From assembly GCF_011207455.1 (NCBI RefSeq), contig NZ_CP048877.1, positions 1,356,576 through 1,420,575 on the forward strand: a stretch of 64,000 nt of DNA. The letters are read 5' to 3'. Positions within the stretch are counted from its first letter, which is position 1, and each line of letters starts with the position of its first letter. Position numbers and translations under genes: made by a program. Of the stretch, positions 55,258 to 58,461 are shown piece by piece. The DNA is from Thermosulfuriphilus ammonigenes. GTDB lineage: Bacteria; Desulfobacterota; Thermodesulfobacteria; Thermodesulfobacteriales; ST65. The notes below the pieces were generated by a model. It had not been told where the DNA came from, did not search any database, and was given only the letters and a program-made list of their open reading frames with translations.

Positions 55258-55292
55258 AAATAAAAAGAGCAGGGAAACCCCTGCTCTTTTTA
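55258..55292 (-). terminator. Terminator after dsrC
   Basis: Thirteen-base arms AAAAAGAGCAGGG / CCCTGCTCTTTTT around the four-base loop AAAC, 26 bases past the dsrC stop. Confidence 0.85.
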
Positions 55293-55317: not shown

Positions 55318-55638
55318 TTAGACACAACCAGTCGGTTTGGGAAGACCGGCCATCTTACAGGCTCCCTTACCCGGGCCAGAGGGGAAGAGCTCATAGATCT
55401 TCTTCAGCGGGTAGCCGGTAACCTTAGAAAGAACCCGCACCATGGGAGCAATGCCGTTCTTTTTAAAGTAATCCTGGAGGACGTTGATAACCTTCCAGTG
55501 ATCCTCAGTGAGCTCCTCAATGCCCTCAAGCTCTTTTACATACTCAACCCACTCCTGGCACCACTCCTCAAGACCTTTTACCAAGAACCCGTCTTCATCG
55601 ACCTCAAAAGTTTTTCCTTTGTACTCAATGGTCGGCAT
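55318..55638 (-). CDS. dsrC: DsrC sulfur-trafficking protein (dissimilatory sulfite reductase partner)
   Basis: DsrC carries sulfur between dissimilatory sulfite reductase DsrAB and a membrane complex as a trisulfide. The 106-residue protein has the family C-terminal arm with both redox cysteines, Cys94 and penultimate Cys105, spaced by ten residues as in functional DsrC (TusE has only one). The N-terminal EYKGKTFEVDEDGFL is also typical. It stands apart from dsrAB, which is common in sulfate reducers. Ribosome site GGAGGG is strong. It implies sulfate, sulfite or sulfur metabolism. Confidence 0.95.
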   Translation of the reverse strand: MPTIEYKGKTFEVDEDGFLVKGLEEWCQEWVEYVKELEGIEELTEDHWKVINVLQDYFKKNGIAPMVRVLSKVTGYPLKKIYELFPSGPGKGACKMAGLPKPTGCV

Positions 55639-55661
55639 AATTCCCTCCTTTTATATTGTTT

Positions 55662-55691
55662 ATAATCAAATCTTTTCTGACTTTGTTACAA
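55662..55691 (-). promoter_or_regulatory. Candidate promoter for dsrC
   Basis: On the minus strand, TTGTAA (55686-55691) and GATTAT (55662-55667) are separated by 18 bases, in an AT-rich region ahead of dsrC. It is a weak match, four of six bases in each box. Confidence 0.35.
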
Positions 55692-55718
55692 AAATGGCTT
55701 AAAGGTAAAACCCTCATA

Positions 55719-56678
55719 CTATAGCCCCCCCTGAATGTCAAGCGAGACCTGTCCGGCTTGCCAGAGAGCTTTCAGAAGAGGAAGATGGGTTGTGTCCAGC
55801 CTCAGGCCGAGCTTTTGAGCATATTGCCAGACCGCCTCAAACTCTTCTTGGTAGATGGTTCGGTCAAGGGGGGGGTAGTCCTTGGCTTGCCACTCCGGAT
55901 GATAGTGTCCCATGAGATTGACGTAGGTTCGGGGAGAGACCTCTTCGGCCAGAAACCGGAGAATCTCAAAAGAGCCAGCAATCCCCTCGGGCATAATCAG
56001 GTGGCGCACCAGCAGACCTTTGCGGGCCAGACCATCTGGTCCGATCTCCAGGTCACCGACCTGACGGTGCATTTCCAGGATGGCCTCGCGTGCTACCTCC
56101 GGATAATTCTCGGCCTTAAGAAACCTTCGGGCGACCTCGGTACTCCAGACCTTGAAATCCGGAAGGTAGATGTCCACCAGGCCTTCAAGCTCTCTAAGGG
56201 TCTTCGGTGAGTCATAGCCTCCGGTGTTGTAGACCACAGGAAGATCAAGCCCCTCGTCCGTAGCCTTGGCTAGGGCTTCGACAATCATGGGGATCTGATG
56301 GGTAGGAGTCACCAGATTGATGTTGTGGCATCCGGCCTTTTTGAGTTCGAGCATTATCTCGGCGAGCCTATGGGAGTCGATCTCTTCTCCGTAGCGCAAC
56401 TGGCTGATCTCGTAAGTCTGACAGAAAACGCAGGCCAAATTACAGCCACTAAAGAAGATAGCCCCTGATCCCTTCTTCCCTACCAGACAGGCCTCTTCAC
56501 CAAAGTGGGGCATATACCCCGAGACAAGGGGGGCTGTCCCAATGCCGCAAAATCCCACCTCCCCCTGGACACGATTTACGCGACACTCCCGGGGGCAGAG
56601 ATCACAGGCCTTGAGGGCTTCTCGTAGCCGACGAGCCCTTTCTCCCAGAAGTGTCGCGTCTTTTAAGGCCTTAGCCAT
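55719..56678 (-). CDS. Radical SAM protein of the PflA-like (COG1313) family
   Basis: A 319-residue radical SAM enzyme. The SAM cluster is CNLACVFC near residue 79 to 86; an N-terminal group of cysteines, CDLCPRECRVNR and FCGIG near 24-44, suggests a second metal site. The family is often called pyruvate-formate-lyase activating-like, but no glycyl-radical enzyme is adjacent. Its ATG overlaps the YcaO-TPR stop by eight bases. What it modifies is not known. Confidence 0.88.
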   Translation of the reverse strand: MAKALKDATLLGERARRLREALKACDLCPRECRVNRVQGEVGFCGIGTAPLVSGYMPHFGEEACLVGKKGSGAIFFSGCNLACVFCQTYEISQLRYGEEIDSHRLAEIMLELKKAGCHNINLVTPTHQIPMIVEALAKATDEGLDLPVVYNTGGYDSPKTLRELEGLVDIYLPDFKVWSTEVARRFLKAENYPEVAREAILEMHRQVGDLEIGPDGLARKGLLVRHLIMPEGIAGSFEILRFLAEEVSPRTYVNLMGHYHPEWQAKDYPPLDRTIYQEEFEAVWQYAQKLGLRLDTTHLPLLKALWQAGQVSLDIQGGL

Positions 56679-58413
56679 GAGACGTTTGGGCTTCGATTAA
56701 GGGTTTTAGCCGTTCTAGGTTCTCCCGGGCAAAATCTATCCCCGGATCCAGTGAAAGAGCCGTCTCGTACCAACGGATGGCCTCCCTATAAAGCCCCAGT
56801 TCTCGAAAGTTAGAGCCAATATTGGCGTAATCAATGGCCGAAGTGGGGTCGATCTCTATAGCCTTTACAAAGCAGGCAATGGCCGCCTCGTGTTCCTTAA
56901 GTTTGTAGTGGCAGAAGCCTTTAAGATTGAAGATTTCCTTCAGGCCATTGTTGTAGGAGGCAGCTTTCTCTAGAGCGGAGATGGCCTGGCGGTAGTCTTC
57001 CTTCTCTTTGTGGCAGAGACCAATATGGCAGTAAATGTTGGCTATCTCCTCCGGGCGGGGATTCAGCGCGAGGGCCCGCTCAAAGGAGGCCAAGGCCTGA
57101 TCGTAGGCCCCCAGGCCTTCGTAGGCCACGCCCTGATAGAAGGCAATATCAAAACGGTTCGGGCAAACTTCATCCAGGACCCCCAGCCACTTAAGGGCTT
57201 CTGCCGGGGGTCGTCTTTCGGCCAGCAGCCGGGCCAGGTGGAAGGGCAGGTCTATACCTATGGTTCGATCACGGAAATGACAACCAGGGATCACGGCATA
57301 GACTGCCGGAACTCCGATTTCTGGGTGGGTAATGTCTACCAGATAAAGGTTGAGCCCTCTCTCGTTAAGGGCCTGGCTCAAGGCCTCGACCTCCTCTCGG
57401 AAGTTATCGCTGGCCACCGAAGGGAGATCAGAGAGGTTTACCAGGGAGGGAGTGTCTATAACGTACTGGGCCTCATCGAGGGTGGCAAACTTGGGCAGAC
57501 CACTTTCGGCATACTTGCCATCGGTGTCAAAATCTCCGGCCAGCTGGGCCACTTCAGTCAGCGCCCGGATAAGGGCCCGTTCCGGACTGGTGGCCGTGCC
57601 AGCGGTATAGACTATTTCGCTTCGGTGGGGATAAGTGCTCGGATCAATAGCCAGAGCGCCCACAGAGGGGATGCCCAGACCGAGGGTGAAGTCCTTAAGC
57701 CAGACCTTGATCCCCAAGCGGGTGAAGCGCTCCAGGAGTTCGGCACAGCTACCAGAGAGACTGGCCGGATGGATGGTAGGGGTGCGCAGGGTCTCATAGG
57801 TGACCAGCGAAGAGACGTGGCGTTCGACCAGCTCACAGGTAGCCTGGACAGCCGCTTCTGCCAGAGAGTTTCCGGCCGCGGAGCCATTGTACTCGTGGAT
57901 CAGCCAGAACCAGAAAAAGGGAATAGAGACCATCTTTTGGTTGCGGACATCGTAGGCCTTGGTGAAGTGAAAGGGTATCTCTTGAAGGAGTTCTCTTAGT
58001 CGATCGTTTGAAAGATTCTCTTCGTCGTGAACGGCCCGGAAAAGTTCTTCTAGATCTATGGCCTCCTCTCCCAGCCGAGAGAAAGTTTCTACCTCATACT
58101 TGTTCTGCTTGACAAACGAAAAGAGACTGAAGCGTTCTACCAGCTCCATGAGGGCACTGGCCTCCGCCTGGAGGGGCTCGGCTCCCTTGCCCATCTGCTT
58201 ATGAAAGCCGGTCAGGGAGGCGGCCTCGGCCGAATAAAGGCTGATATAAACCGGTATTCCCAGGCGCCCCTTATCTATACGCACCAAATCCCGGCATATT
58301 TTATAACCCCGTTCTTCAAGAATCCTTCGGACCCGCTGGATGGTCTCCTCTGGGGTGAAAACCTTATCGTACTTGCGCCCTGTCTGTTTAAAGGAATCCT
58401 TTAAAAATTCCAT
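56671..58413 (-). CDS. YcaO-domain protein with C-terminal TPR repeats
   Basis: YcaO enzymes use ATP to activate amide bonds, making azolines, thioamides and related peptide changes. The YcaO core (about 1-410) has QAEASALMELVERF near 84, GSAAGNSLAEAAVQATCELVERH (read in parts) near 182 and TAGTATSPERALIRALTEV near 271, the ATP/Mg-binding motifs. The C-terminal half (about 420-570) is a run of TPR helices, including FNLKGFCHYKLKEHEAAIAC-type repeats, for binding a partner. ATG at 58413 follows GGAGG; an ATG at 58443 lies before the promoter's start and is not used. Target protein is unknown. Confidence 0.88.
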   Translation of the reverse strand: MEFLKDSFKQTGRKYDKVFTPEETIQRVRRILEERGYKICRDLVRIDKGRLGIPVYISLYSAEAASLTGFHKQMGKGAEPLQAEASALMELVERFSLFSFVKQNKYEVETFSRLGEEAIDLEELFRAVHDEENLSNDRLRELLQEIPFHFTKAYDVRNQKMVSIPFFWFWLIHEYNGSAAGNSLAEAAVQATCELVERHVSSLVTYETLRTPTIHPASLSGSCAELLERFTRLGIKVWLKDFTLGLGIPSVGALAIDPSTYPHRSEIVYTAGTATSPERALIRALTEVAQLAGDFDTDGKYAESGLPKFATLDEAQYVIDTPSLVNLSDLPSVASDNFREEVEALSQALNERGLNLYLVDITHPEIGVPAVYAVIPGCHFRDRTIGIDLPFHLARLLAERRPPAEALKWLGVLDEVCPNRFDIAFYQGVAYEGLGAYDQALASFERALALNPRPEEIANIYCHIGLCHKEKEDYRQAISALEKAASYNNGLKEIFNLKGFCHYKLKEHEAAIACFVKAIEIDPTSAIDYANIGSNFRELGLYREAIRWYETALSLDPGIDFARENLERLKPLIEAQTSHG

Positions 58414-58432
58414 AAACAACCTCCATTTTGGG

Positions 58433-58461
58433 ATTATAGCCAAATTTTATCTTTTTACCAA
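58433..58461 (-). promoter_or_regulatory. Promoter of the YcaO-TPR / radical SAM pair
   Basis: On the minus strand TTGGTA (58456-58461), 17 bases, then a perfect TATAAT (58433-58438). The start would be near 58426, leaving a leader of about 13 bases that carries only the ribosome site. Confidence 0.65.

Follow-up and report, generated by a model that had tools for sequence, protein, structure and literature searches.

YcaO-TPR proteins of Desulfobacterota belong functionally with DsrC, a conclusion well supported by the distribution and position of their genes. The best explanation of the compared sequences, held at slightly better than even confidence, is thioamidation of DsrC by YcaO-TPR, with Gly90 as the likeliest site. 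Sulfite is reduced on DsrC, whose trisulfide is the link between sulfate respiration and energy conservation. YcaO enzymes thioamidate McrA in methanogens and uL16 in E. coli. The genes were studied in a 64,000-nucleotide stretch of Thermosulfuriphilus ammonigenes DNA (the window), from a genome of 2.29 Mb in which dsrC is the sole PF04358 gene.

An earlier note on the window had described overlapping ycaO-TPR and radical SAM genes with dsrC 80 bases on, all on one strand, and coordinates and Pfam matches bore this out. The order on the minus strand is ycaO-TPR, radical SAM gene, dsrC and terminator. The first two genes overlap by 8 bases and the gap from the radical SAM gene to dsrC is 80 bases. 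The features are as follows:

58433-58461, minus strand: plausible sigma-70-like promoter before ycaO-TPR, TTGGTA-17-TATAAT, 10/12 consensus match
58413-56671, minus strand: ycaO-TPR, 580 aa, ATG start, YcaO core and TPR repeats
56678-55719, minus strand: radical SAM gene, 319 aa, PFL-activase-like fold with an extra N-terminal Cys motif
55638-55318, minus strand: dsrC, 106 aa, canonical two-cysteine arm (C94 and C105)
55369-55371, minus strand: codon of DsrC Gly90 within FPSGP-G-KGAC, the proposed thioamide site (Gly89 by D. vulgaris numbering)
55261-55292, minus strand: intrinsic terminator 3' of dsrC, hairpin and U-run

The ATG of ycaO-TPR is preceded by a GGAGG ribosome site at 58424-58420; the TTG at 58443, which was called mechanically as the start, is less likely. 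The terminator reported earlier was found again as a hairpin of 14 pairs plus a U-run (z −5.8 against shuffled sequences). The promoter had been called clear, and as read from the sequence it is better termed plausible: its placement and consensus match are good, but promoter-like matches in the region numbered 4 against 2.6 ± 1.7 expected from shuffles, which is no enrichment. The window DsrC is of the sulfite-reduction type, with 122 bits to PF04358 and 114 bits to TIGR03342 (cut-off 53.5). Its two arm cysteines are spaced 11 residues apart and the second is penultimate.

The ycaO-TPR product belongs to the YcaO superfamily but lies outside both named protein-thioamidation equivalogs. It matched the Pfam YcaO family at E 1.3e-72 (245 bits, cut-off 25.7), with a YcaO core at residues 74-378 and C-terminal TPR repeats at residues 421-578. 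The ATP motif is whole (S178-A-A-G181-N182-x3-E186-x3-Q190-x3-E194-x2-E197-R198); S178, E186, Q190, E194, E197 and R198 fit the pattern Sx6-7Ex3Qx3ExxER on a YcaO fold, and the E/Q/E/E/R residues were invariant across 50 relatives. In the predicted structure (pLDDT 93) the C-terminal third forms a TPR superhelix, and a structure search ranked M. jannaschii YcaO first (E 2.8e-17), followed by LynD and E. coli YcaO. The best NCBIfam match was the McrA-glycine thioamidation model TIGR03266, at 134 bits against a cut-off of 365. Scores also fell below the cut-offs of NF040716 for the uL16-type E. coli YcaO (45 against 700 bits) and of TIGR03604 for the SagD-type RiPP azoline cyclodehydratases (107 against 219 bits), and the C-terminal PxPxP of azoline formers was absent from the sequence. 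An E. coli-type or azoline-forming identity was thus ruled out by cut-offs and motifs. By analogy, the mode of action is predicted to resemble that of the protein-thioamidating YcaO enzymes.

With the methanogen YcaO(-TfuA) system for McrA-glycine thioamidation (MJ1094, PDB 6PE3/6PEU), which gave the best NCBIfam and fold match, the window enzyme has in common the ATP-motif YcaO core, and the proposed site is likewise a glycine in a protein central to the energy metabolism of sulfidic cells. It differs in its score below the family cut-off, in its C-terminal TPR domain and in having DsrC rather than McrA as partner. E. coli YcaO, which acts on Met82 of uL16 (PDB 4Q84-4Q86; PMC13063428), likewise has a YcaO core and a C-terminal TPR region, the latter mediating dimerisation (PMC13063428), and is alike in that its target is a protein and not a RiPP. 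However, identity to it by fold is only about 18-20%, the NF040716 score is far below cut-off, and the window family follows DsrC and not ribosomes.

Co-occurrence was scored in 217 Desulfobacterota genomes, each at least 90% complete. The YcaO-TPR family was found in 81 and DsrC in 112; 80 genomes had both, 1 had YcaO-TPR alone, 32 had DsrC alone and 104 had neither (Fisher p 1e-31). No DsrC was found in the single YcaO-alone genome (G117). When the 32 DsrC-only genomes were searched again with the Pfam family YcaO, 31 gave no hit to any YcaO. DsrC and TusE are sulfur carriers, and TusE-type proteins relay sulfur. Co-occurrence and adjacency would also be accounted for if DsrC were the sulfur donor and YcaO-TPR thioamidated another protein, for example ribosomal uL16; for E. 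coli YcaO, primary metabolism is only suspected as the origin of the sulfur (PMC13063428). However, uL16 is universal, yet YcaO-TPR is missing from 104 DsrC-less genomes and from 32 of the DsrC-bearing ones. Sulfidic cells would scarcely need a donor, and the Gly90 switch and the +16 on DsrC described below would be left unexplained. We consider a donor role distinctly unlikely, and uL16 as the main substrate was rejected, as the distribution of the enzyme tracks DsrC.

Confinement to a single genome, which the earlier note had named as grounds for giving up the pairing, was not what we found. Same-strand ycaO-TPR and dsrC neighbours were present in at least 31 genomes of 11 families and in both gene orders. 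The order ycaO then dsrC was seen in families f1, f31, f42, f50, f57, f63, f67, f78 and f83, of which f42 contains DsrC sequences very near D. vulgaris DsrC, and the order dsrC then ycaO in every one of the six f18 genomes sampled. The two genes lay no more than 3 kb apart in 22 of the 80 genomes carrying both, and a larger sample of 394 genomes yielded 14 further adjacent genomes and added family f107. Among the 80 nearest YcaO-TPR loci, the informative same-strand neighbour met most often was dsrC, which came next downstream in 10 loci (at 57-317 bases) and next upstream in 1. Most YcaO-TPR genomes have the two genes apart, and in a search of 60 relatives almost every near-complete genome of the order had YcaO-TPR, mostly away from dsrC. 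The adjacency label changed at least seven times on well-supported branches of the YcaO tree, which indicates that adjacency was repeatedly gained or lost.

The substrate could instead be another sulfite-reduction protein co-expressed with dsrC (DsrA, DsrB, a DsrMKJOP subunit or AprAB), as the enzyme co-occurs with the entire pathway, of which DsrC is just one marker, and sulfate-pathway proteins are known to bear further modifications (PMC3125180). The gene adjoined by ycaO-TPR in 11 families is dsrC itself, however, and among the loci read around ycaO-TPR no further dsr gene recurred, so that such a substrate appears unlikely. It could also be that the two genes share only regulation or inheritance and that YcaO performs unrelated ATP chemistry, such as the proposed activation of molybdate. 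The D. vulgaris YcaO-TPR protein, DVU2210, has the same architecture by the published description; its deletion left growth on sulfate normal, and its loss together with delta-sat gave molybdate resistance (PMC7774982). That paper left its function unassigned and made no link to DsrC, and by locus number its gene is apart from dsrC (DVU2776). The normal growth implies that the modification would be non-essential. Such unrelated chemistry would suit these phenotypes and the separation of the genes in most YcaO-TPR genomes, but not the adjacency in two gene orders and also with a second YcaO type (f3, and f20 with a divergent DsrC). Neighbours by chance, taking a distance of about 3 kb and a genome size of about 3 Mb, were estimated at well under one per 80 genomes, and we regard this explanation as very unlikely.

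For thioamidation of DsrC by YcaO-TPR, a candidate site emerged from comparison of DsrC sequences, and the earlier view that no modification site could be read from the sequence was too pessimistic. In an alignment of 118 DsrC proteins, the motif at the arm base was FPSGP-G-KGAC with the enzyme and mostly FPSGP-A-KGAC without it. Across the 394 genomes, 172 had the Gly motif and 38 the Ala motif. Among YcaO-TPR genomes the motif could be read in 159, all of them with Gly90 and none with Ala90 (no motif was readable in G117 and G300); genomes without YcaO-TPR comprised 13 with Gly90 and 38 with Ala90 (Fisher p 5e-31). This value is too favourable, since related genomes are not independent samples, a single clade accounting for 26 of the Ala sequences, and since other columns separate the groups equally. 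Most of the signal is a single deep split in the DsrC tree. By mutual information, columns 33-35 and 71 separated the groups as well as position 90, and the idea of Gly90 as a uniquely covarying column was weakened, other columns being equal through phylogeny.

Family f40 provided the only clean second Gly/Ala event. Two of its members (G111 and G136) had YcaO-TPR and Gly90, and two (G078 and G160) had Ala90, no YcaO-TPR and an otherwise unaltered arm; five genomes were sampled from this family and all candidates were scored. Since other DsrC columns covary through phylogeny, the f40 contrast alone carries independent weight. Position 71 changed from Ser to Cys in f40 in step with Gly/Ala90, and residues 71 and 90 are probably in contact. 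Over the whole alignment, f40 included, position 71 was Ser, Thr or Ala with Gly90 and Cys or Val with Ala90, nearly without exception. Archaeal-type DsrC structures (1JI8, 1SAU) have Ala at the equivalent of position 90 and Desulfovibrio-type structures have Gly; we know of no DsrC crystal structure that reports a thioamide. Six members of f80 (G226, G245, G264, G333, G364 and G408) had no YcaO-TPR and retained Gly90. The arm end is altered in that family, reading KPEGC[AV] in the two members read, and DsrC is fast-evolving there.

Published data on native D. vulgaris DsrC are consistent with a modification at this position. In three pull-downs the peptide LK*EVYELFPSGPGK carried +42 and +16, assigned as 'trimethylation + oxidation' in the modification table (PMC3125180). 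Its C-terminal end is the Gly-Lys at issue, and Met, Trp and Cys are all absent from it. The authors stated that accuracy was too low to separate trimethylation from acetylation, which differ by 0.036 Da, and the quoted search tolerance was 100 ppm (PMC3125180); oxidation (15.995) and a thioamide (15.977) would likewise be inseparable there. A study of E. coli uL16 warns of this near-isobaric trap between thioamide and oxidation (PMC13063428). The +16 could also be another oxidation or a wrong assignment. The earlier note had proposed a modification system directed at DsrC, and its YcaO half gained support from co-occurrence, from adjacency in 11 families, from Gly90 covariation and from the published +16. 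The radical SAM half is weaker, as its linkage to dsrC was seen only in this order and no target was indicated.

YcaO-TPR would thus be a dedicated maturation enzyme of DsrC. As the best explanation of the data, DsrC is probably its substrate; a backbone thioamide is slightly favoured as the product, and Gly90 as the modified residue is a specific and tentative guess. The enzyme would activate one DsrC backbone amide in an ATP-dependent manner and exchange its oxygen for sulfur. The likeliest site would be Gly90 of the FPSGP-G-KGAC motif at the arm base; the arm bears both sulfur-handling cysteines, and the resulting thioglycine may stiffen or re-tune it. The sulfur may come from sulfide, an abundant product of these cells, or from sulfur carried by DsrC. 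A thioglycine installed by YcaO-TPR at the arm base of DsrC in sulfate-reducing Desulfobacterota is proposed here with reserve. If true, it would be the third case of protein backbone thioamidation, the second in bacteria and the first in respiratory sulfur metabolism. Its resemblance to oxidation, and its expected absence from DsrC produced in E. coli, would explain why it has been missed so far. It would bear on arm movement and on all assays using E. coli-made DsrC, and a YcaO-TPR protein known only through a molybdate-resistance phenotype would acquire a native substrate. Our literature search found no paper joining YcaO or thioamides with DsrC.

The radical SAM protein belongs to its superfamily by PF04055 (46.5 bits, cut-off 29.5), and its CxxxCxxC (C79/C83/C86) was invariant in 24 relatives. 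It scored below the cut-offs of TIGR04337 (AmmeMemoRadiSam, 35.8 against 220 bits) and TIGR02494 (glycyl-radical activase, 19 against 174 bits). Pyruvate formate-lyase activating enzyme (PDB 3C8F) is alike in fold and CxxxCxxC, but identity is 15%, the activase cut-offs are not reached and the window protein has extra N-terminal cysteines. The radical SAM gene neighbours dsrC in 14 sampled relatives of families f2 and f3, and this linkage is conserved only within the order of the window genome. The dsrC-linked copies, including that of the window, formed one supported clade separate from an unlinked paralogue. The complete set ycaO-rsam-dsrC is present in the window genome; this is likely the older order, from which ycaO later moved away in relatives. 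A by-eye check of the 118 aligned DsrC proteins found no residue tracking the radical SAM gene. The enzyme may be a lineage-specific helper. Outside the order, at L141, ycaO-TPR is directly followed by a radical SAM gene 56% identical to that of the window. G078 of f40, a genome without YcaO-TPR, has a radical SAM homologue (52%) at about 1.3 kb from dsrC and on the other strand (L262:5001-7479).

The second YcaO type is shorter (about 480 aa, 31-34% identical) and is without the long TPR part (L091:10440-11897, L092:9186-10628, L093:8422-9867). In several Thermodesulfobacteria it lies downstream of both dsrC and a small ComEA-like helix-hairpin-helix gene, and in G146 it adjoins a divergent DsrC of the f20 type. 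An f20 locus (L096:5068-9808) has YcaO-TPR followed by a 791-aa B12-type radical SAM-like protein, with a divergent DsrC on the other strand whose arm reads TTSERAICKIAGLPKPTGCI and is without Gly90. At L097:125-6276 the neighbour of the second YcaO type is a gene like that of cobyrinate a,c-diamide synthase (DsrN-like); the same stretch also encodes a cysteine-rich protein of 365 aa, preceded by a third, distant YcaO. A single reading frame of 269 aa with two DsrC-like domains was found at G049:C30:98234-98875. A 165-aa protein of unknown function was encoded on the ycaO-TPR strand in 10 of the 80 loci, at L112:7434-7931 just upstream of ycaO-TPR.
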